DNA of 45,790 nt, from IMG/VR virus record IMGVR_UViG_3300034418_012525, positions 1 through 45,790 of that record; one strand, written 5' to 3'. Within the stretch, counting starts at the first letter, position 1. Every line of letters begins with the position of its first letter. The position numbers were made by a program, and so were the translations under genes. Positions 3,662-40,676 of this stretch are shown here, piece after piece. Under the pieces are notes generated by a model that was not told the origin of the DNA, searched no databases, and saw nothing but the letters and a program-made list of their open reading frames with translations. The DNA comes from a virus.

Positions 3662-5203
3662 TTAGTTAATCCGAATATTTTTGTTAAGTATTTTATCTGA
3701 GGCATCATATAATTCTTTTAATAATTCATCAACCGATCTTCCCGTTGATGATACGGGTACAGGGGGTACACCAGGAAATGGATGAACGTGTGAAATTAAA
3801 AATTCAACAATCAATTGCAAAAGTTCCAATAACTCTTCACCCCTCACCACAGATGAGGTATTCGGCTCAATCTGATCAGCCAACAGACTTTCACTTACCC
3901 CATATAAAGTATTTGATAAATCCACCTTCGTTTTTCCTGGTATCTGAGAAAGATGTGATAACAAATAAATTTGATCAGATCCTTGAATATTAACCGTTTT
4001 GTTGGATGAAACAACTTCTTTTGGAAGTACAGTCGTTTCCAAAACTTCAAACGGAACATTTTTGTTTTTCTGATCATAAACCAAACCATAAAACTCGTTA
4101 CTTGAATCAACTGGATTTTTAACCAACGACTGCAAAGTTTCCATATTTTCAATTTCTTGAGCAGAAAATGATGATGAAGAAAGATTTCTTTCATATATAA
4201 TCTTTCTTAATAAACTTGATGGTCTATAATAAAACGGAAACTTCTCATCTTCTCTAAATGTCCTTTCACCCGAAACAGTTAAACCAGGATATCTCGTGTT
4301 AACCTCCAACGAACTTAAATCACCTTGTTTAATCCGAGTTAACACCAAATTGATTATGTTACAATAATCATCCAAAGATACCGTTTGGTTAATATTAATC
4401 CTGTTTCTTAAGAATTTTAAAGATGAAACATCAGATGACACATTTAAATTATCTGTTGATACCTGTTCATCCGGCTTTAAAGAATAAATTAAAATTGAAC
4501 CCGTAAATGAATTTTGTGAATTCTCAGGGTTGTCCAAATTATATTCCACCAATATCCTAACCCTTGTGGTTTGTTTTTGAAATTCAAAATATTTTGACGG
4601 ATCCAAATAAAGAGTCTGACTATCATATTTGGTTAATTGAATAAATGATCTTTGATCATACCTGTTCGGAATTTCACGAGCACCGTGATTAACATTCTTC
4701 CCCGCCCTTAACAATAACTCATTCCCCTTTATGATTACATCAGCAGTACCCTTACCATAAATGGCAATATCATCAGGGTTCGCATACACACCTTTATACC
4801 TTTCTTCTTCACCACCATTTACAATAATGTCTCTGTAACTAAGTCTCTGAGACCCGCTTTCTAAATGTGTCTGTGCTGAGTCATAACCCTCATCAGGAAC
4901 CGTGGTCGGTGACGAATAAATTCCCGAAATGTAAAACTTATCTTTGTTCTTATCATAATCAGGATCCGTAAAAAGAACGTGAACATAATTCTCGTCTTGT
5001 GGCGTTACATTTAAAAAATAAGGCAATAAAGGAAGAACCAAAAAAGGATCATTCTCACCCCATGGAACATGAGGTATGGATTCAAGTTCCGTTCGGTTCT
5101 GTGTAGTAACGTGTGCACGAATTCTACCTAACCTTAGGGGGTCGTTATTATCCAATACGACCGCAGGAAATATAATTCTATTATTTCTATTAAAAAGACT
5201 CAT
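3662..5203 (-). CDS. gp5: gp5-like baseplate hub/spike protein with OB-fold
   Basis: A 513-residue protein. The N-terminal ~120 residues match the OB-fold of T4 gp5-type baseplate proteins: VVLDNNDPLRLGRIRAHV, then HVPWGENDPFLVLPLLPYF, then YVHVLFTDPDYDKNKDKFYISG. In T4, gp5 forms the central spike and carries a lysozyme domain. No obvious lysozyme catalytic triad is visible here, so cell-wall lysis may reside elsewhere. The C-terminus has a stretch (LLQLIVEFLISHVHPFPGVPP) like other phage spike or hub proteins with a metal-binding His pair. It overlaps the upstream 65-residue gene by four bases (ATGA), implying coupled translation. The family assignment is good; the exact T4 counterpart is less sure. 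Confidence 0.7.
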   Translation of the reverse strand: MSLFNRNNRIIFPAVVLDNNDPLRLGRIRAHVTTQNRTELESIPHVPWGENDPFLVLPLLPYFLNVTPQDENYVHVLFTDPDYDKNKDKFYISGIYSSPTTVPDEGYDSAQTHLESGSQRLSYRDIIVNGGEEERYKGVYANPDDIAIYGKGTADVIIKGNELLLRAGKNVNHGAREIPNRYDQRSFIQLTKYDSQTLYLDPSKYFEFQKQTTRVRILVEYNLDNPENSQNSFTGSILIYSLKPDEQVSTDNLNVSSDVSSLKFLRNRININQTVSLDDYCNIINLVLTRIKQGDLSSLEVNTRYPGLTVSGERTFREDEKFPFYYRPSSLLRKIIYERNLSSSSFSAQEIENMETLQSLVKNPVDSSNEFYGLVYDQKNKNVPFEVLETTVLPKEVVSSNKTVNIQGSDQIYLLSHLSQIPGKTKVDLSNTLYGVSESLLADQIEPNTSSVVRGEELLELLQLIVEFLISHVHPFPGVPPVPVSSTGRSVDELLKELYDASDKILNKNIRIN

Positions 5204-26342: not shown

Positions 26343-26738
26343 ATGGAATTTTTTATAAAGAAAAATAGTACGTTACCGATATTAAAGGTTCAAATTATTA
26401 AGGACGGAAGATTAGATTTTCGTGAGTTTGATAATTTAACCAACAGTTCAACCATTACTTTTTCTATGAAAAACGTGGAAACGGATATGGATGTTATTGT
26501 TAATAAACCCGCATTTGTAGTTAAAAAAACAAATACGACCGGTGACGGACCTGAAGAAGATTATTTTGTTTATTATCAATTCACCAGAAAAGAAACCCGA
26601 AAAATGGGAAGATTTCAAGCGGAGTTTAAGATTACAAATAGTCAGGGTGAAATTATTTTGCCTTTAAGAAATAAACTATTTATAAACATTGATGATTCAT
26701 TCAGTGAGGTGGATTTATGTTGCAAACCAAATAAATAA
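26343..26738 (+). CDS. BppU-N-like small baseplate protein, copy 1
   Basis: A 131-residue protein starting MEFFIKKNSTLPILKVQIIK. The alternation (FREFDNLTNSSTITFSMKN; GRFQAEFKITNSQGEIILP) matches the beta-sandwich fold of N-terminal baseplate upper protein (BppU) domains, which attach fibres to a baseplate. It is paralogous to the next gene over its whole length (shared MEFFIK-N-S-LPILK start, ITFSMKN/IRFSMKN, GRF/GRYEGEF, NSQGE/NSMGE) but has an extra CCKPNK tail. It lies 11 bases behind the Cys-rich virion gene. Confidence 0.65.
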   Translation: MEFFIKKNSTLPILKVQIIKDGRLDFREFDNLTNSSTITFSMKNVETDMDVIVNKPAFVVKKTNTTGDGPEEDYFVYYQFTRKETRKMGRFQAEFKITNSQGEIILPLRNKLFINIDDSFSEVDLCCKPNK

Positions 26739-27092
26739 ATGGAATTTTTTATCAAACAAAATAGTGAATTACCAATCTTAAAGATGCAAGTTGTCCGTGA
26801 CGGAAGAACAGATGCTTACAAAATATTTGATGCCGATTTGGATACCGCAACCATTCGTTTTTCAATGAAGAATACGGATAACGGAATCCAAAAGATTTTG
26901 ATGAATAATGCTTACATCACAACAAAAACAAAAAACAACCCCGACTCACCAACGGAATATTATATCTACTACAAATTCTCAAAAAGAGACACTAATAGAA
27001 AAGGGAGATATGAAGGTGAATTTCATATTGTGAATTCAATGGGTGAGTTAATTGCACCGATACGAGAAATTTTATATATAAACATAATTTAA
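26739..27092 (+). CDS. BppU-N-like small baseplate protein, copy 2
   Basis: A 117-residue protein starting MEFFIKQNSELPILKMQVVR, directly abutting copy 1 (its ATG follows the previous stop with no gap). It shares the beta-sandwich layout and motifs of copy 1 (TIRFSMKNTDNG; YYIYYKFSKRDTNRKGRYEG). By eye the two are roughly 45-50% identical in the shared part, indicating an old tandem duplication with diversification. Two neighbouring subunits could form a hetero-oligomeric collar or fibre-attachment ring. Confidence 0.65.
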   Translation: MEFFIKQNSELPILKMQVVRDGRTDAYKIFDADLDTATIRFSMKNTDNGIQKILMNNAYITTKTKNNPDSPTEYYIYYKFSKRDTNRKGRYEGEFHIVNSMGELIAPIREILYINII

Positions 27093-30701: not shown

Positions 30702-31034
30702 ATCTTCTTCTTTCAAACCATCAGAAGATAAGATGTACCAACCACCCATAACAAATTTTAACTCAACTGAAGATTCATTTCCGAGTTCAATTTCTTTAAA
30801 CTTATCATCAATCAATAAGTTTGTTTGAATAATAGTTTTGGTTATTGATTTGATTGTTAGGTGATCCGTATTTGTTTCGTCCAATATAATTTGTGCCTCA
30901 GGTATATCTTTTACTATAATGCAACTTTCACCACTTGTTCGGTATCTTGGACTACTTACAATAGCATTATCGGAAGTTCTAATTTCCCTTCCATTGATAA
31001 TTCTAATTGAGGGTATTGACTTATAAATTGCCAT
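30687..31034 (-). CDS. Hypothetical protein beside neck-like gene
   Basis: A 115-residue beta-rich protein (SIPSIRIINGREIRTSDNAI; SVELKFVMGGWYILSSDG). The final strand pattern SVELKFVMGGWYILSSDG looks like that of small phage head/tail decoration or fibre-base proteins. It directly abuts the neck-like gene (sharing base 31034) and converges on the polymerase. No family could be named. Confidence 0.55.
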   Translation of the reverse strand: MAIYKSIPSIRIINGREIRTSDNAIVSSPRYRTSGESCIIVKDIPEAQIILDETNTDHLTIKSITKTIIQTNLLIDDKFKEIELGNESSVELKFVMGGWYILSSDGLKEEDLSID

Positions 31035-32146
31035 TATATTACATAAAATTGTCTTGGGAATGCTCGGTATTGAAGTGATTTGTTAAGATTTTCAGCAACG
31101 GATGCTTCCCTCTCCATCATTTTTTCTGGTCTTAATCTTTCCAATCTTTGTGTAAGTTCTTCAATTAACTTTGATCTTTCGTCCTTAGATTCAGTTAATA
31201 AAGAATCATATTCCATTTGAATTTCACTATCAGGTGTTTTTAAATTACCCTGATATTTTCCTCTAACACGACCAACAGTTTCTTTTACATATGCAACAAA
31301 CCATTTACGAACCCATGCTTGTGCGGGTGTATTTAATTCGTCCCATTTCATTTCGTCAATTGGAATATCTGACGGTAAACGTACCACATCAGGATTTTTT
31401 GCCAAACAATCTTCTCTATCAAAAGTATCATAATACCAATACCAAACTCTATATTCATTAAATTGAATATTACCGAAGTCAAACTTACCACCAGGTACAT
31501 TCATTAAATGTAATGCTTTTTTACCTTCAGCAAGTGCGGTAATACGATAAGTAAGTTCACCAGAAATAATTCTTCTTTTAATGTTAATATCTTGCATTCT
31601 TAATAAGATATCAAAGGCGGGTGTAATAAAGTAGTTACCCATTGTACCCATTTGTGAAAAACCAGCAGCACCACCCAAACCGATACCACCAAATCCTCCG
31701 AATCCACCCATAAACGGATCAAAGAATGCGGCATCAAGTTCAGATCTACTAAACCATAAAAGTTCATTTACCTCTCTACCCGCAGGAATTTCGTATATTT
31801 GTTGATTTGGTACGAGATCAATATAATCTTTTTTAAGTTCAGAATCACCCCCCGCTTGTAGTCCAACAATTTTAGAGTAAGCGTATGTATATTGAGTTTC
31901 CCAATCTAATGATCGTGATGTAAATGCACGAGTTAAAGATTGTTCATCTAAATTAAGCCCATATAAAGATGTCCATTGTGATTCAATCAACCAATCATTA
32001 ACGTATTGTGCATAGTCCTGAATTGAAAGTTCAAGTAGAGAATCCATCATTTCATCCTCTATTTCAACACTTCTTATAGGTGCACCTAATAGGTGTTTAA
32101 CTCTCGTATAAAGTTTACTTCTATCTGGTTCGTTAATTATAGACAT
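31034..32146 (-). CDS. Putative neck protein (gp13-like)
   Basis: A 370-residue protein. RVKHLLGAPIRSVEIEDEMM followed by a helix and DLVPNQQIYEIPAGREVNE, then a Gly-rich loop (GGFGGFGGIGLGGAAG), matches the general layout of head-tail neck proteins of T4-like marine phages. WVRKWFVAYVKETVGRVRGK is a conserved-looking helix. T4 gp13 is 309 residues. The glycine-rich loop of about 30 residues is distinctive and may be a flexible insertion or a low-complexity expansion. It has an octamer site 14 bases upstream. Assignment is from pattern memory and context. Confidence 0.5.
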   Translation of the reverse strand: MSIINEPDRSKLYTRVKHLLGAPIRSVEIEDEMMDSLLELSIQDYAQYVNDWLIESQWTSLYGLNLDEQSLTRAFTSRSLDWETQYTYAYSKIVGLQAGGDSELKKDYIDLVPNQQIYEIPAGREVNELLWFSRSELDAAFFDPFMGGFGGFGGIGLGGAAGFSQMGTMGNYFITPAFDILLRMQDINIKRRIISGELTYRITALAEGKKALHLMNVPGGKFDFGNIQFNEYRVWYWYYDTFDREDCLAKNPDVVRLPSDIPIDEMKWDELNTPAQAWVRKWFVAYVKETVGRVRGKYQGNLKTPDSEIQMEYDSLLTESKDERSKLIEELTQRLERLRPEKMMEREASVAENLNKSLQYRAFPRQFYVI

Positions 32147-32177: not shown

Positions 32178-33758
32178 TTATAAATCTATATTATTATAAA
32201 GTGCAGAGATCGGATAAACGTATTTTCCGTCAATAATTTTTGTCTGTGCGTTATCAAAAACGAAGGTTCCTTTGGTGTTATGTTTAAACGCCATATAGTC
32301 TGTTTTATATGGTGCAACATTACCTGTTCCATAAAGAATAACAAAACCATCTTTAACTTCATAACCACTTAGGGGTTTAATTTGAACGGTTTTTTTACCT
32401 TCGGGTGTCATTACATAAGCATCAACACCACCGAGTGCATCCACTTTTTTACCAAGACCCCCTTCTTTTTCCACTTCATCGGTATTAAAGATTATTTTTA
32501 AATCTTTCACCGCATCAACTTCTCGTTTGTCACCTGAACGGTTATTGATATCCAAACCTGACATTACTTTTTTGAATGTCTCTGATTCTGGTGAAAAGAT
32601 TCTATATCTCAATTCCATTAGGTATCTTAAAAAACGGTCCAATTCTGATAACTGTTGTCTTTTATCATCTAAGTTAAATGCGATGGGATCAATACCATTA
32701 AGTTTAAGATATTGGTTTAAATCATTAACCAATGTGCAGAATGCGGTATAGTTAGTGTTCAATTTGTTAATTACCGAACGACCAGGTTGTTCAAAATCAT
32801 AAACACCCGATAATTCATCTTTTCCGTATTCATCAGCATCGTACCAATAATCGTGAAAAAGTTCTTTCAAAATACTCATAATGGTATTTTTGTATCGGTT
32901 TTTAATGTTGTAATTTTTGTTAAAAAGTTGAGCATAAAAACCAACTTGTTTTCTGTTGCAACCCAAACTTTTTCCTTCACTAATTACTTGTTTGATATTA
33001 CGAGACTCATTAACTTTTTTTTGTGTTCTGAGGTTATAAAGTTGATTAACAAATTCCCAATTTATAACTTTCCAAAAGTTTTTAATGTATTCATCTCTTT
33101 TATTTTTGTACTTTAAATAATATGCGTGTTCCCACAGGTCCAATCCCAAAATTGGGTAACCCCCATTTTTAATTACGTTCATTAACGGATTATCTTGATT
33201 TGCGGTGGACATAATTTTAAGGTCACCTCTTTTGGTTAATACCAACCAAACCCAACCTGAACCGAATCTTTTTCTTGCGACGGTTTCAAAACGATTTCTA
33301 AAACCATTAAAATCACCGAAGTCTTTTTTGATTTTTTCATAAACCTTTCCGTGTGCTCTTTGTCTTTTTGGGCTTAGCATTTTCCAAAATAAGGCGTGGT
33401 TAAATGCTCCACCGGCGTTATCACGAACGGTTTTATTGAACCTTGATATTCCTTTGATGATTTGTTCTAATTCCAAATCACCGTCTTCTTTATTTTCCAA
33501 GGCTTTATTTAATTTCTTTACGTACCCTTTGTAATGTCTATTATAATGAATATCCATTGTTTCTGCATCAATAAAACGTTTTAATGCACCGTAAGAATAG
33601 GGCAATTCTTCAATACCTATTTCTTTCATTTCTAGTAATATTTCTTGAGGTACCTTTTTGTAGATTTCGTTGAGAACGGCTGTTTTCGGGTACCTTTGGT
33701 TTCCGTTTATTTGTTCTGTAATCAGATCAACTTTTTTTCTTAAAATATTAAATTTCAC
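32178..33758 (-). CDS. Mn-type superoxide dismutase fused to nuclease-like domain
   Basis: A 526-residue fusion from GTG 33758. Residues 1-15 (MKFNILRKKVDLITE) look like a cleavable capsid-targeting leader. Residues 50-245 form a full Fe/Mn superoxide dismutase: EETM-type helix with H71 (TMDIHYNRHYKGY), H121 (GGAFNHALFW), D207 and H211 (GLDLWEHAYYLKY), i.e. all four metal ligands. Q188 in STANQDNPLM sits at the MnSOD second-sphere position. Then KQVISEGKS, another [I/V]xE|G site. Residues 405-526 carry E413, D446 and Q459-I-K461 (GGVDAYV ... TVQIKP), a PD-(D/E)XK-like set. No comparable fusion is known to me. Confidence 0.85.
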   Translation of the reverse strand: MKFNILRKKVDLITEQINGNQRYPKTAVLNEIYKKVPQEILLEMKEIGIEELPYSYGALKRFIDAETMDIHYNRHYKGYVKKLNKALENKEDGDLELEQIIKGISRFNKTVRDNAGGAFNHALFWKMLSPKRQRAHGKVYEKIKKDFGDFNGFRNRFETVARKRFGSGWVWLVLTKRGDLKIMSTANQDNPLMNVIKNGGYPILGLDLWEHAYYLKYKNKRDEYIKNFWKVINWEFVNQLYNLRTQKKVNESRNIKQVISEGKSLGCNRKQVGFYAQLFNKNYNIKNRYKNTIMSILKELFHDYWYDADEYGKDELSGVYDFEQPGRSVINKLNTNYTAFCTLVNDLNQYLKLNGIDPIAFNLDDKRQQLSELDRFLRYLMELRYRIFSPESETFKKVMSGLDINNRSGDKREVDAVKDLKIIFNTDEVEKEGGLGKKVDALGGVDAYVMTPEGKKTVQIKPLSGYEVKDGFVILYGTGNVAPYKTDYMAFKHNTKGTFVFDNAQTKIIDGKYVYPISALYNNIDL

Positions 33759-33813: not shown

Positions 33814-35577
33814 TTATTTTCGTTTATTGATCAAATTCATTATTTCTTCAAACGTATCTGTTGATCCTTCGTCGTCCCCCATTACTGTTCGGATGATTTT
33901 TTTCTTCTTATTTAAAATATCATAAATCACTCCTTCAATAGTATTTTCAAAAATCGGGTAATAAACGGACACGGAAAATTTTTGACCATAACGGTATGCT
34001 CTATCTTCTGCTTGTGCGTGATCAGATGGGACAAATGATAAGTCATTCATAATAACGGCTTCGGCCGCGGTTAATGTAATTCCAACACCAGCTGCTTTTA
34101 AGTTTCCAACAAAAACTTTGATTTTATCATTTTCTTGAAATTGGTCAACAGAGAGTTGTCTTGCATTCTTTGACATTCTTCCGTCCAACTTAACGGATTT
34201 CTTTCCAAAATGATCCGCAATTTGATTTAATGTATCAGTAAAATTGGTGAATATTAAAACCTTTTTTCCTTGTTCAATAATATTTTCAGCAAGTTCAATC
34301 GTATCTTTTATTTTTTCTTCTGCGATACATTGTCTAACTTTCATTAATTTTGTGAATTGAACGGTCAAAGATTTTTTTTCATCATCATTTTCGTACCAAT
34401 CATAATAATCCCCCATTAATTCTTCATATTCTTTTGATTTTAATCTCAAATAGACGGGAGTTATAATTTTCTCAGGTAAATCTAAAATATCTTCTTTTAA
34501 TCTTCTTAATACGTGAGATTTGGTTCTATCTCTTAATTCTTCCAAATTGGATGCCCCATTTACGTTCCATACTTTTCTTGCTCCGACATTAAATTGGTAA
34601 CCTTCGCAATAACGAATAACATACGCCATCCAATTGTAAGCGACGGGTGATTCCACCAAATCCAACAAATTATAATAATTAATTGGACGTGAGGTCATTG
34701 GGGTTCCTGTTAAAAACCAAACCCGATCAATTTGTGATATCACATCATTTAACAGTTTGGTTCTTTTGGCTTGTGTGTTCTGAATATAATGGGCCTCATC
34801 TAATACAATTAAATCAAAATCTTCTTGCAAGATGATTGATTCTTCTTTATTTTTGGAATCGTGAAAATTTTTGATAATATCATAATTGATGATCACAAAG
34901 TCTGCACTTTCCCATTTTTTCCCTTCAATAACAGAAATTGACCTATCTGTATAATTTTCAATTTCCCGTTTCCAATTCAGTTTTAAGGATGCGGGACAAA
35001 CAATCATTATCTTTTTTGCACCCGTTTCTAATGCTCCGATAACAGTTGAGGTCGTCTTTCCCAATCCCATATCATCCGCCAAAATGAATTTTTTGTTCCC
35101 AACCAATTTTTCAATCGCTTCCTTTTGATGAGATAATGGTGGTCTATGAGAATATTTTTCATAATCAATATTAACCTCAACCTGATTTTGATTTTGCAAG
35201 ATTGCGACTTTTGGTAACCAAAATGGATGTAGTTTTTCAGATTCAAATGTTTTTCCCCAAATGTGGTATGCCTTATCTTTTTCAACCAACAGTTTTTCCA
35301 CATATATTTTCTCAGGTATTTTGGTATATAGGTTATCTTCCATCATTTTTTTTGCAAAATAACTGTCCAATTCCACCCATTTTCTTGCCACCTTTGGAAC
35401 TACTTTATGGTATTTGTTAATGTAATCGGCTTGTGCACGAGTCAGTTTAAAATGTTTTTGTTTTTCTTTTTTTGATTTAATGGATAGAATATAATTATTA
35501 AACCCACTGTAATTTTCTAAAATACGGTGGGCTTTAACTTCGGGGATTGAAGATAATATTTCTTTATTGTTTTCCAT
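33814..35577 (-). CDS. SNF2-family helicase/translocase
   Basis: A 587-residue SF2 protein with SMARCAL1-like SNF2 features. The Q-like segment RPPLSHQKEAIEKLVGNKKF is followed by Walker A LADDMGLGKTT (167-176). Motif II is LIVLDEAHYIQNTQA and motif III WFLTGTPMTSRPINY. The C-terminal RecA half has KVLIFTNFTDTLNQIADHFG, VGNLKAAGVGITLTAAEAVI and the motif VI HAQAEDRAYRYGQ. It is likely involved in fork remodelling or recombination, comparable in role (not proven in homology) to T4 UvsW. The N-terminal 140 residues are not recognised. An octamer lies 30 bases upstream. Confidence 0.88.
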   Translation of the reverse strand: MENNKEILSSIPEVKAHRILENYSGFNNYILSIKSKKEKQKHFKLTRAQADYINKYHKVVPKVARKWVELDSYFAKKMMEDNLYTKIPEKIYVEKLLVEKDKAYHIWGKTFESEKLHPFWLPKVAILQNQNQVEVNIDYEKYSHRPPLSHQKEAIEKLVGNKKFILADDMGLGKTTSTVIGALETGAKKIMIVCPASLKLNWKREIENYTDRSISVIEGKKWESADFVIINYDIIKNFHDSKNKEESIILQEDFDLIVLDEAHYIQNTQAKRTKLLNDVISQIDRVWFLTGTPMTSRPINYYNLLDLVESPVAYNWMAYVIRYCEGYQFNVGARKVWNVNGASNLEELRDRTKSHVLRRLKEDILDLPEKIITPVYLRLKSKEYEELMGDYYDWYENDDEKKSLTVQFTKLMKVRQCIAEEKIKDTIELAENIIEQGKKVLIFTNFTDTLNQIADHFGKKSVKLDGRMSKNARQLSVDQFQENDKIKVFVGNLKAAGVGITLTAAEAVIMNDLSFVPSDHAQAEDRAYRYGQKFSVSVYYPIFENTIEGVIYDILNKKKKIIRTVMGDDEGSTDTFEEIMNLINKRK

Positions 35578-36162: not shown

Positions 36163-37203
36163 ATGGCATTACCAAAAAAAATAAAAAAGACATTACCCTT
36201 AACTCCTGATGAAATTTTATTGAGGAGAAGAGAAGAATTGCTTGAAAATATTGAAAGAGACGGAACGTATCTTCCAAAAGGAATACAACATTCTGATTTG
36301 GATAGAGGTATGTTGGATTTTGTAAAAGAAAATTTGGAAATTTCTGCAGACGGAAAAAAGGTTCCAACAATAGACATTATTATTACGACACAAAATTGGG
36401 CACAATTCACGGAGAGTTGGAACTTCCAAGATTTAGATAAAAATATCAGACCACCTTTTGTTGCTACAGTTAGAAAGCCAGAAGTACCTTATGGTACCAA
36501 TCCTTCAACACAATACAATATTCCAAACCGCAGACAATTTATATATGCGAAAGTTCCAACTTGGGATGGTCAAAGAAAAGGTATGGACATATATACCATA
36601 CCTCAACCAATACCTGTTGATATTACATATAATATTAAGATTTTCTGCAATAAGATGAGACATTTGAATGATTTTAACAAAAAAGTTCTTCAGGAGTTTG
36701 CATCACGTCAGTCTTATGCAACAATCAAAGGACATTATATTCCAATCGTATTAAACAGCATCAGCGATGAATCAGTTTTGGATATTGAGAAAAGGAAATA
36801 TTATGTTCAAAATTATGAATTTATGATGATGGGATTTTTGTTGGATGAAGAAGAGTTTGAAGTGAAACCAGCAATATCAAGAAGTCTTACCTTATTGGAA
36901 ACAGATGTTTCATCAAGTTCAAAAAGATTTAACAATCCAAATAAAAATTCAGATCAGTTTGATTTAAATATTAATTTTGCCACAGGTATAACCGCACTTA
37001 CCGAAACATATAGATACACCGCAGATATCAAAATCATTAATAGCGAAAATGTGGATAGTTTTTCAGTATATATAAATGGAAATTATTATGGTGATGATAT
37101 GACCGAAATTTCCGTTAATACTAATGATGTTGTGGTTATTGAAATAGTAAAAGATGATAATTCAAAAGAAGCGATTCTTTATTGCAACGTACAACTTTTA
37201 TAA
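36163..37203 (+). CDS. Putative tail completion/terminator protein (gp15-like)
   Basis: A 346-residue protein from ATG 36163 (MALPKKIKKTLPLTPDEILL). Segments TIDIIITTQNWAQFTESWN, NRRQFIYAKVPTWDGQRKG, DIYTIPQPIPVDITYNIKIF and RHLNDFNKKVLQEFASRQSY are followed by GHYIPIVLNSISDESVLDI. They resemble the conserved core of T4-like tail completion or sheath-stabiliser proteins. Its place just before the sheath gene supports this. The last ~100 residues form an Ig-like beta C-terminus (YRYTADIKIINSENVDSFSV) not expected in T4 gp15. An in-frame TTG at 36157 is not favoured. Confidence 0.5.
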   Translation: MALPKKIKKTLPLTPDEILLRRREELLENIERDGTYLPKGIQHSDLDRGMLDFVKENLEISADGKKVPTIDIIITTQNWAQFTESWNFQDLDKNIRPPFVATVRKPEVPYGTNPSTQYNIPNRRQFIYAKVPTWDGQRKGMDIYTIPQPIPVDITYNIKIFCNKMRHLNDFNKKVLQEFASRQSYATIKGHYIPIVLNSISDESVLDIEKRKYYVQNYEFMMMGFLLDEEEFEVKPAISRSLTLLETDVSSSSKRFNNPNKNSDQFDLNINFATGITALTETYRYTADIKIINSENVDSFSVYINGNYYGDDMTEISVNTNDVVVIEIVKDDNSKEAILYCNVQLL

Positions 37204-37353
37204 TTTATCACCATATATATCAGTCGGTTCTGAACAGTGATCCTCAATCAGTTTTTCCAAGAACTTATACAAAACCAATCCCTCTTTTTCACAATACTTC
37301 TTTAGTACTTCGTGACTTCTTTTTGATATTTTTATGTTTTTGATATCCCCCAT
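37198..37353 (-). CDS. 51-aa ribbon-helix-helix protein, antisense in tail operon
   Basis: A short frame from ATG 37353. KNIKISKRSHEVLKKYCEKE is followed by GLVLYKFLEKLIEDHC: one beta strand (IKIS), helix, G-turn, helix, the layout of CopG/Arc ribbon-helix-helix repressors. The pattern alternation I-K-I-S supports DNA contact by the strand. It lies on the minus strand in a 281-base gap between two plus-strand tail genes; its stop overlaps the stop of the gp15-like gene by three bases. It probably binds an operator near the sheath promoter or its own. RHH regulators are common in phages but seldom sit antisense inside structural operons. Confidence 0.65.
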   Translation of the reverse strand: MGDIKNIKISKRSHEVLKKYCEKEGLVLYKFLEKLIEDHCSEPTDIYGDKL

Positions 37354-37445
37354 CGGTAAATGTTTTTGGCAGAAAAAAGGTAGAAAATTTTCTTACTGAC
37401 CCATAAATAAATACAGAAAATATAATTTTTTGTTTTTTTTCCAAG

Positions 37446-37453
37446 TATTTATA
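37446..37453 (+). promoter_or_regulatory. Late-promoter-like octamer TATTTATA before sheath
   Basis: GTATTTATAG, 31 bases before the ATG at 37485. The rest of 37354-37484 is AT-rich and non-coding, and holds no other recognised feature; read leftward, the same site is TATAAATA, facing the RHH gene. Confidence 0.5.
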
Positions 37454-37484
37454 GTAAAAATAAATTTCAAATAAAATTAACAAA

Positions 37485-40400
37485 ATGGCGACATCAAACA
37501 AAGTATTTGTCTCACCGGGTGTTTATACATCAGAAAGAGACTTAAGTTTTGTGGCACAAAGCGTCGGGGTTACAACCTTAGGGTTGGTCGGAGAAACTTT
37601 ATCGGGTCCGGCATTTGAACCAATTTTCATCTCAAATTATGATGAATTCCAAACAATTTTTGGTGGTACAAACCCTGCAAAATTTGTGAACACACAGATT
37701 CCTAAATACGAAGCAGCCTACATTGCAAAGGCGTATCTTCAACAATCTAACCAATTATTCGTAACAAGAGTATTGGGTCTTTCAGGATATGATGCAGGTC
37801 CTTCGTGGTCAATTACCACAGTTGGTAATTTGGATTCATCAGGTCTTACCGTAACTAGTGCTCCTGCTACAGTATATAGTGTAGATTTTTCAGGGGTAAC
37901 AGGTGATAGTACGACCATTTCAATTTTCAATCAAAATTTACCAGCATCAATTTCATCGGTATTCTCACTTCCTTATACTACATTCAGTGGTGGTGAGTCT
38001 TCATTGGAAGATGATTTTATCGCTCACTTTAATGGTGAGATTAATGATGTGGCGACTTCAGGTGCTACTGCACAGTTTTGGGGTACCGTATCGGCATCTA
38101 CATTTAGTTCAGTAACAGGTGCTTCGTCTTCATATACAGGCTTCAGTGAAACATTTGGAGTTGATGGTATCACAACTGATGTTGCAGATTTCACTGCACC
38201 AGAAAATGATCCTTGGTATTATGCGATGTTCCCAAGTAACTCAAGTCAATACACAGGTGTTGGTTTTGGTATGGTAACAACAGGTTTAACTTCAACAGGT
38301 GCTGGATCTTATTCAGGTACTGCAGTTATATATGTAACCAACTATTCGGGAACACCTATTAGTGATTACAATGATATGGTAATTGCAACTTTACGTTCAA
38401 GAGGTATTAGTGATTACGGTACAGGTGATGGACCAATATATGAAGTATCAGGATTAACCGATGTTCAAATGATCTGTTCAGGTGTGTATTCGGGAGTTAC
38501 TTCTAATCCTTTTGATACATTTAAAATTTCAGGTATCACAAAAGATTCTAACACATTTGAATTTGAAACTTCATTCTCATTGGCTAATACAAATTATATT
38601 ACCAAAGTATTTGGTCAGAGTAATTTTGCAAAACCAAGAACTGAAATTCCTTTATTTGTTGAAGAAGCATATTATAACTTATTAAATTATGGATACCGTG
38701 AAGGTAAGATTCGTGGTTTAAATTGCACATTAATTGATCTTCCTTCTGCAAGAAATGATAATGCAACTAATACATCAATTGGTTGGTATTTGGATCGTTA
38801 CCAAACACCTGAAACTCCATATGTGGTTTCAGAATTGCGTGGTAATGAAGTATATGACTTATTTAAATTTGTATTGATTTCTGATGGTAATTCAGCGAAT
38901 CAACAAGTTAAGATTTCAATCGTGAATATGTCATTTCAAAACTTAACTTTTGATATTATTGTTAGAGATTTCTTTGATACGGATGCGAATCCATTTGTGT
39001 TAGAAAAATTCACAAACTGTACGTTAGATCCAAATCAAAATGGTTTCGTTGCTAAAAAAGTGGGTACTTCAAACGGAGAATATCAATTGAGATCATCATT
39101 TATTATGTTGGAAATGAGCGAGGACGCACCGACAGATGCATTACCTTGTGGTTTCAGAGGATATTTAACGAGAAGATATGAGTCCAACTCAATCAAGTCT
39201 CCACATTTATTATATAAAACAAAATATAACACACCGGGTGAAGTTTTATTTAACCCACCATTTGGTACCGCTTCAGGTGACAATGTTACAAGAAGTGCAG
39301 GTGATAGAGTTCGTAGAACTTATTTGGGTGTTTCAAATACAGTTGGAATTGATGTTGATTTCTTCCAATATAAAGGAAAACAAAATCCAACTAACTTAGG
39401 TCAAGCATTAGAATCATCACCTTGGGCTTACCTTACAAAAGGTTTCCATATGGATTCAGGTGCTACCGTAGTTACAGTTCCTTCAAATTATATTACATCA
39501 GGTCAATCACAATTTGAGGTTGGTGTTGCAGAATTCAGAAATGATCCATCAACCAATGATAACCCATATTTCAGTTTATCTGCTCGTAAATTCACAATCG
39601 CACCTTCAGGTGGTTTTGATGGTTGGGATATTTACAGAGAATATAGAACAAACTTAGATTCATTTACATTAGGTAATACAGGTTATCTTAAAGGTGCAGC
39701 AACTTCTGTAAATTATTCAAACGCAACAGGATGGGGTGCATTCAAACAAATCGTGGGACCAGACAAACAAAGATGGGCAAACACCGATTATTATGCTTAC
39801 TTATGGGGTCAATCAACATTTGCGAACCCTGAAGCGGTTAACATCAACTTGTTTGTAACACCTGGTATAGATTATGTTAATAACTCAAACTTGGTTGAAA
39901 GTGCAATTGATATGATTGAAACAGATCGTGCTGATTCAGTTTATATCTGTACTACACCTGATTACAATATGTTTGTTAATAACACAAGAAGTTTCACAAC
40001 CGATTTCATTTATCCTGAAGAATCAGTAGATAATTTAGATGAAACAGGTATTGACTCAAACTATACGGCAACGTATTATCCTTGGGTTCTTACAAGAGAC
40101 AGTGTTAATAACACACAAGTTTATATTCCACCGACAGCTGAAGTTGTAAGAAACTTGGCGTTGACGGATAACATCGCATTCCCTTGGTTCGCTTCAGCGG
40201 GTTACACTCGTGGTCTTGTGAATTCAGTGAAAGCAAGAAAGAAACTCACACAAGAAGATCGTGATATTCTTTATAAAGGAAGAATTAACCCAATTGCAAC
40301 ATTCTCTGATGTGGGAACTGTAATTTGGGGTAACAAAACTCTTCAAGTTAGAGAATCAGCACTTGATAGAATTAACGTGAGAAGATTGTTATTACAAGCA

Positions 40401-40676
40401 CGTAAGTTGATTTCAGCGGTTGCTGTACGTCTATTGTTTGATCAAAATGATCAACAGGTTCGTCAAGAATTCTTGGATTCAGTTAATCCAATCTTGGAAA
40501 ACATCAGACGTGACAGAGGTCTTATTGACTTTAGAGTTGTAGTAACAGACACACCTGAAGATCTTGATTCAAATACTCTAACAGGTAAGATTTATATCAA
40601 ACCAACAAGAGCATTAGAATTTATTGATATTGAATTCTTGATCACACCAACAGGTGCTTCATTTGAAGATGTATAA
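37485..40676 (+). CDS. gp18: Tail sheath protein with large insertion
   Basis: A 1063-residue contractile sheath protein. N-terminal FVSPGVYTSERDLSFVAQSV, then TTLGLVGETLSGPAFEPIFI and YIAKAYLQQSNQLFVTRVLG are the conserved core start. The C-terminal VRRLLLQARKLISAVAVRLL, then FLDSVNPILENIRRDRGLID and ALEFIDIEFLITP are classic. T4 gp18 has 659 residues. The extra ~400 fall largely between about 95 and 375, a Ser/Thr/Gly-rich beta region (YSGTAVIYVTNYSGTPISDY) that would project outward. It may bind host glycans or stabilise the sheath. Confidence 0.88.
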   Translation: MATSNKVFVSPGVYTSERDLSFVAQSVGVTTLGLVGETLSGPAFEPIFISNYDEFQTIFGGTNPAKFVNTQIPKYEAAYIAKAYLQQSNQLFVTRVLGLSGYDAGPSWSITTVGNLDSSGLTVTSAPATVYSVDFSGVTGDSTTISIFNQNLPASISSVFSLPYTTFSGGESSLEDDFIAHFNGEINDVATSGATAQFWGTVSASTFSSVTGASSSYTGFSETFGVDGITTDVADFTAPENDPWYYAMFPSNSSQYTGVGFGMVTTGLTSTGAGSYSGTAVIYVTNYSGTPISDYNDMVIATLRSRGISDYGTGDGPIYEVSGLTDVQMICSGVYSGVTSNPFDTFKISGITKDSNTFEFETSFSLANTNYITKVFGQSNFAKPRTEIPLFVEEAYYNLLNYGYREGKIRGLNCTLIDLPSARNDNATNTSIGWYLDRYQTPETPYVVSELRGNEVYDLFKFVLISDGNSANQQVKISIVNMSFQNLTFDIIVRDFFDTDANPFVLEKFTNCTLDPNQNGFVAKKVGTSNGEYQLRSSFIMLEMSEDAPTDALPCGFRGYLTRRYESNSIKSPHLLYKTKYNTPGEVLFNPPFGTASGDNVTRSAGDRVRRTYLGVSNTVGIDVDFFQYKGKQNPTNLGQALESSPWAYLTKGFHMDSGATVVTVPSNYITSGQSQFEVGVAEFRNDPSTNDNPYFSLSARKFTIAPSGGFDGWDIYREYRTNLDSFTLGNTGYLKGAATSVNYSNATGWGAFKQIVGPDKQRWANTDYYAYLWGQSTFANPEAVNINLFVTPGIDYVNNSNLVESAIDMIETDRADSVYICTTPDYNMFVNNTRSFTTDFIYPEESVDNLDETGIDSNYTATYYPWVLTRDSVNNTQVYIPPTAEVVRNLALTDNIAFPWFASAGYTRGLVNSVKARKKLTQEDRDILYKGRINPIATFSDVGTVIWGNKTLQVRESALDRINVRRLLLQARKLISAVAVRLLFDQNDQQVRQEFLDSVNPILENIRRDRGLIDFRVVVTDTPEDLDSNTLTGKIYIKPTRALEFIDIEFLITPTGASFEDV

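Follow-up and report, generated by a model that had tools for sequence, protein, structure and literature searches.

The SOD–nuclease gene occupies positions 32178–33758 on the minus strand of the window, the whole 45,790-nt stretch of viral DNA analysed here, and the ORF list gives it a GTG start and a product of 526 aa. Immediately upstream lies a SNF2-type helicase gene (33814–35577, minus strand; Pfam SNF2-rel_dom, PHROG 62) and immediately downstream a neck or head–tail adaptor gene (31034–32146, minus strand; PHROG 211 Ad2). This order is constant across relatives—SNF2 helicase, SOD–nuclease, neck protein, small protein—with the helicase upstream in 159 of 159 loci and the neck gene downstream in 148 of 153, counting on each side the loci in which the next ORF could be seen. 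A second IMG/VR contig, L003, encodes a 99% identical version of the protein. Elsewhere in the window, the tail sheath gene (37485–40676, plus strand) encodes 1063 aa; its main match to a PHROG sheath family is limited to residues 744–1060, leaving a very long N-terminal extension ahead of it. Two adjoining short genes (26343–26738 and 26739–27092, plus strand) have at their starts a 75-nt repeat whose copies are 76% identical, and are apparently tandem paralogues.

Residues 44–251 (33006–33629, minus strand) form the predicted mature Mn-type superoxide dismutase (SOD), with the SOD fold at residues 49–242 and a C-terminal end at VNE|S. Pfam places Sod_Fe_N at residues 50–129 (E 1e-21, 77.6 bits against a curated cut-off of 27) and Sod_Fe_C at residues 136–239 (E 1e-39, 134.9 bits against a cut-off of 20.9), NCBIfam returns a Mn-SOD match (E 6e-59), and Foldseek finds the same fold in the full-length model. 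The sequence-only reading had proposed a complete Fe/Mn-SOD, and its four metal ligands, H71 (33546–33548), H121 (33396–33398), D207 (33138–33140) and H211 (33126–33128, all minus strand), together with the Mn-type Q188, are all in place and invariant among 33 non-redundant relatives, as are H75, Y79, W169, E210 and Y214 near the ligands. Because the metal ligands, Q188 and the neighbouring residues are invariant, dismutase activity of this half is likely. The best solved relatives in a PDB sequence search are bacterial Mn-SODs (E 3e-58); the enzyme of Sphingobacterium sp. T2 (6gsc/5a9g) has the same fold, four metal ligands and Mn-type Gln at 45–50% identity. Unlike bacterial Mn-SOD, the phage SOD is embedded in a polyprotein between protease-type sites.

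The predicted mature nuclease product spans residues 262–526 (32181–32975, minus strand) and is helical from 262 to about 404, followed by a PD-(D/E)XK core at residues about 405–526 (32181–32546, minus strand). An AlphaFold model of the product, made with 33 aligned sequences, has a pLDDT of 91.6 and a pTM of 0.84. Foldseek with this model lists NhoI (E 9.8e-4) and the resolvase Hjc (prob 0.98) first, and VIA-align superposes it on Hjc over 99 residues at 3.2 Å (Z 7.6), with Z 7.0 to NhoI and 6.3 to DpnI and with HhaI and PvuII also listed; Z values under 8 taken alone may reflect a common arrangement, and it is the invariant residues falling in register that back the PD-(D/E)XK fold. The likeness lies in the last 120 residues of the protein. 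There, E413, D446, Q459 and K461 are invariant in relatives and placed as active-site residues, giving the PD-(D/E)XK pattern, in which helix 1 carries an acidic residue, strand 2 a D and strand 3 the (D/E/Q)xK motif, and all four are kept in a standalone homologue, L001, that is only 26% identical. An earlier suggestion that the SOD is joined to a PD-(D/E)XK-like domain carrying E413, D446 and QIK (459–461) is thus borne out by the model, the Hjc superposition and the invariance of these residues. On the strength of the model, residues about 405–526 have a PD-(D/E)XK nuclease fold, and DNA cleavage is predicted.

The phage nuclease has the core fold and E–D–QxK arrangement of invariant residues in common with Hjc resolvases, NhoI and DpnI, and differs from them in its additional helical N-terminal part of about 130 aa, in the Gln that replaces the Glu/Asp of the (D/E)xK motif and in having no sequence-level match to a named family. 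The helical part, residues 262–404, gave no match of its own in the searches with the nuclease half. Pfam and NCBIfam returned only scattered weak matches to the nuclease domain, a PDB sequence search with the nuclease profile returned only noise, and neither of the distant homologues L001 and L226 brought up anything new when used as a scan query. The homologue L001 (positions 3770–4642 of its contig, from the 735-kb phage LR756501) stands alone, with neither SOD nor evident propeptide. Separately, BFVD A0A8D9CCA0, a protein of 1113 aa from an uncultured marine phage, has a domain that matches the nuclease-half model at a query TM of 0.82, so the nuclease domain may have another fusion partner too.

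The SOD–nuclease fusion is a conserved family in uncultured T4-like phages. Relatives occur on at least 598 IMG/VR contigs; the best 80 of these all cover the whole fusion, at 50–99% identity, and their contigs reach 322 kb. The fusion was absent from the isolated phages in the phage collection searched, and, judged by capsid or neck protein, Flavobacterium phage immuto and Microcystis phage Mel-JY01 are the isolates nearest to the carriers. From these isolates and the style of signal peptides we would guess a Bacteroidota host; a search for a T9SS tail family gave sub-threshold matches only. One family member is already deposited, UniProt A0A6J5L953 (uncultured Caudovirales phage, 501 aa), which aligns with 257 columns of the nuclease-domain model (E 1e-25) but carries no annotation beyond ‘superoxide dismutase’, its nuclease half and sites going unnamed. 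A scan of cellular genome contigs found SODs only, from Gammaproteobacteria, Bacteroidota and others at 42–50% identity; it used SOD-derived patterns, which place cellular homologues of the nuclease domain and the SOD donor outside its reach. Models of defence systems did not match the SOD–nuclease protein.

Three glutamates mark the boundaries of the predicted chains. E43 ends a predicted N-terminal propeptide (residues 1–43, 33630–33758, minus strand; ILLE|M), and E251 and E261 bracket a 10-residue linker (residues 252–261, 32976–33005, minus strand) between predicted sites VNE|S and ISE|G. Each has [ILV] two residues before it in the window protein and, in the otherwise variable N terminus and linker, these three are the only invariant residues besides C267 among the 33 non-redundant relatives. 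A larger set of 111 sequences has E251 and E261 without exception (100%), always with [ILVM] at the second position before the Glu; the two are spaced by exactly 10 in 110, with the remaining linker columns mostly 15–75% conserved. Glu occupies column 43 in 93 of the 111, and the remaining 18 have an [IL]xE shifted upstream by a few residues. Exactly two linker motifs were counted in 23 of 23 representatives (<70% identity), when two or more are expected in about 13% of sequences after shuffling of the linker. Of 20 sequences outside an automatic linker count, those inspected by eye in the alignment, for example L005, L014, L027, L035, L060 and L067, have both sites. The N-terminal site is statistically weak by itself: after shuffling, about 48% of sequences contain one. 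Residues 249–262, in the linker, fall below a pLDDT of 50 in the full-length model, as expected of an accessible site.

It had been proposed that an [I/V]xE|G site between the domains, VISEG (258–262), could separate them. The site is there and is conserved, but E261 follows an [IL]xE rule for which Gly at P1′ is not required, and VISE|G is one of three such sites rather than the only one. A cut at E43 would place the N terminus of the SOD 9 residues ahead of its LPY motif. The Met at P1′ of E43 is atypical in comparison with capsid (Ala) and protease-propeptide (Ser) sites and counts against cleavage at that position.

This pattern suggests sites for a prohead protease. In T4, cleavage by gp21 follows L/I-X-E, and the N-terminal propeptides removed from head proteins are 7–65 residues long (PMC9026906). 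E43, E251 and E261 match this rule, and also the LINE|A expected in the relatives’ major capsid protein, where it lies just ahead of the conserved core and is conserved in 77 of 77 sequences; as in T4-type head proteins processed by the prohead protease, the [IL]xE sites bound the predicted mature chains. The window is a fragment lacking the S77 protease and gp23-type capsid genes; these occur together in four carrier relatives (G001, G002, G004 and G009). Applied to 50 conserved Glu columns in six neighbouring proteins, the same island criterion found no [ILV]xE-type island. It found two in an acidic protein between the protease and capsid genes, a presumed scaffold identified by its position; the alignment of the protease propeptide was too poor to give a second positive control.

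T4 internal head proteins and Alt, which have a capsid-targeting sequence and are processed by gp21, share with the SOD–nuclease phages an N-terminal propeptide ending in [IL]xE, an S77 protease in the genome and a T4-type capsid. Two enzymes in one precursor and the extra internal sites set the present case apart, as does the cargo, SOD and nuclease being undescribed for T4; processing in these phages is deduced from sequence.

In the 322-kb relative G001 (loci L096–L112), 23 of the 302 ORFs begin with one of three common leaders, MKKIIRLTESDLxRIVKRxIxE[QS], MKNLxFLxESERxRILNLH or MNLKExIKRILREE, each then followed by [ILV]xE (for example at 37187–37621, 39107–39478 and 316370–317395), against a match rate of 0.02% in shuffled sequences. 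These leaders are possibly capsid-targeting signals for a large set of packaged proteins.

Natural versions of the gene without the SOD exist, which had escaped the reading of the single sequence. A search reaching more distant nuclease domains gave 59 fusions and 20 loci scored as lacking SOD. Eighteen of the 20 share the locus and retain both a propeptide and, ahead of the nuclease, an [IL]SE|[GST] site; the remaining two are L226, which is distant and has a different context, and L244. In L244 (4051–5594) the SOD and nuclease frames differ and are joined within the linker, by a frameshift error or a true gene split; this two-gene arrangement, which looks like a frameshift, was left out of the evidence. 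The clearest comparison is that of L258 with L031 and L027, relative to which it lacks exactly 609 nt (203 codons), in frame, with 81–88% identity on both sides of the deletion. INE|M and ISE|G are kept, the junction leaves INEMKKIEIEKLKSIISEG, and eight near-identical contigs have the same deletion. A second SOD-less clade (L232, L254, L274, L275 and L300), separate from the L258 group in the tree, consists of propeptide, LSE|[ST] and nuclease at the same locus. On three large SOD-less contigs (318, 309 and 215 kb) there is no SOD elsewhere. Given that propeptide, site and nuclease are all retained at the SOD-less loci, the constant part of the protein is the nuclease together with its propeptide, and the SOD is an added, removable domain. 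The SOD has been lost at least twice and was probably gained once.

We consider it likely that the gene encodes a capsid-targeted polyprotein that is cut into propeptide, SOD and nuclease, with both enzymes packaged and probably entering the host with the DNA. The conserved capsid-protease-like sites between the domains suggest that both enzymes are packed in the particle. As a propeptide, the first ~43 residues would direct the precursor into the prohead core, where an S77 prohead protease of the gp21 type would cut after E43, E251 and E261 and free a Mn-SOD of normal length and a PD-(D/E)XK nuclease inside the head. Both would be retained in the virion and probably reach the host along with the DNA. 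The SOD would remove superoxide, whether in the virion or on entry; the nuclease, which may stay inactive until cleavage, would cut DNA, either the host’s or during head completion. The nuclease would be the core part and the SOD an inserted and occasionally lost cargo domain. What has been computed comprises the domains, the invariant active sites, the fixed locus, the conserved sites with their controls and the natural in-frame deletion of the SOD. By analogy with T4 we infer cleavage, packaging, ejection and the enzymatic activities. Against this account stand the standalone homologue from the 735-kb phage, L001, which shows no propeptide, and the restraint that an active nuclease would need inside a full head.

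A more specific version, in which our confidence falls a little short of even, is that of a cargo-loading cassette: the SOD would have been inserted between the protease sites of an obligatory packaged nuclease precursor, to be freed at head maturation and injected against host superoxide. Infection would then begin with SOD already at hand, and the slot could gain or lose its SOD over evolutionary time. The target of the SOD may be superoxide that the host produces when infected, the role proposed for the Cu/Zn-SOD of the chlorovirus PBCV-1; alternatively, the SOD may protect the particle. The PBCV-1 enzyme (a245r) is reported to be packaged in the virion and is linked to lower superoxide in infected cells (PMC7019647). 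Both are viral SODs, but a245r is of the Cu/Zn type with an unrelated fold, is a single-domain protein and comes from an algal virus.

A chance fusion, assembly artefact or chimera has practically no chance of accounting for the gene, being refuted by the same fusion and gene order on hundreds of independent contigs. It is improbable that the protein instead stays uncleaved and works in the infected cell as a stable bifunctional enzyme, its nuclease tethered to an auxiliary SOD and its conserved glutamates serving a structural role. Nearly all relatives do have both domains complete in one frame, and the SODs of freshwater phages have been read as a host-helping defence against reactive oxygen (PMC6802176), but the conserved Glu lie within otherwise variable, low-confidence linkers, the motif persists where its position shifts, SOD-less versions keep the site before the nuclease and none of the six neighbouring proteins has such islands. 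Somewhat less doubtful, though still unlikely, is that the SOD shields packaged DNA or virion proteins from environmental, for example photochemical, superoxide and does not act in the host. A SOD retained in the head would suit phages of surface waters, and the domain is fully conserved down to its second-shell residues; however, it is missing from some close relatives, and superoxide is a poor direct oxidant of DNA.

The position of the gene ahead of the neck gene, in 148 of 153 loci, bears on a further possibility, to which we give a modest chance: that the nuclease half chiefly serves head completion, in the role that gp4 has in T4, with the SOD as passenger. T4 gp4 is itself a PD-(D/E)XK protein (PMC1189080) needed for head–tail joining, and its nuclease activity is required for T4 morphogenesis according to Benler 2020, as cited in PMC7824862. 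PHROG 218, the gp4 family, was not found in ten carrier contigs, whereas the same search finds gp4 in T4; a seven-member gp4 profile likewise gave nothing convincing in carriers, in which a gp4 may be too diverged to be seen. The nuclease half might thus replace gp4, with which it has in common a structural gene neighbourhood and an [E/Q]IKP motif. Nevertheless, the SOD–nuclease protein does not match PHROG 218, hhalign of the two families detects no profile similarity (probability 0.1%), and T4 gp4, at 150 aa, differs in size and begins directly, without an obvious propeptide. Membership of the gp4 family was rejected on the hhalign result, and gp4 is kept as a functional rival only. A role of this kind can coexist with a packaged polyprotein.

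Earlier work has listed freshwater-phage SODs as a safeguard against oxidative stress (PMC6802176), and packaged, processed T4 proteins are classical. In the literature on phage and viral SODs that we searched, mostly outside subscription journals, we found no description of the SOD–nuclease fusion, nor of a single precursor in which both enzymes lie between sites of the prohead-protease type and which has natural alleles lacking the SOD.

A SOD gene in a phage is usually taken to be a metabolic gene of benefit to the host cell. Here, the SOD lies between apparent capsid-protease sites, in a structural-gene locus conserved across a T4-like lineage that is abundant in aquatic habitats, and this points to a particle-borne enzyme. 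Two questions thereby become directly testable, with the SOD-less sister phages as natural controls: whether bacteria respond to phage entry with superoxide, and whether virions come equipped against it. If the cleavage model is true, the gene would also be a template from nature for filling T4-type capsids with enzymes.
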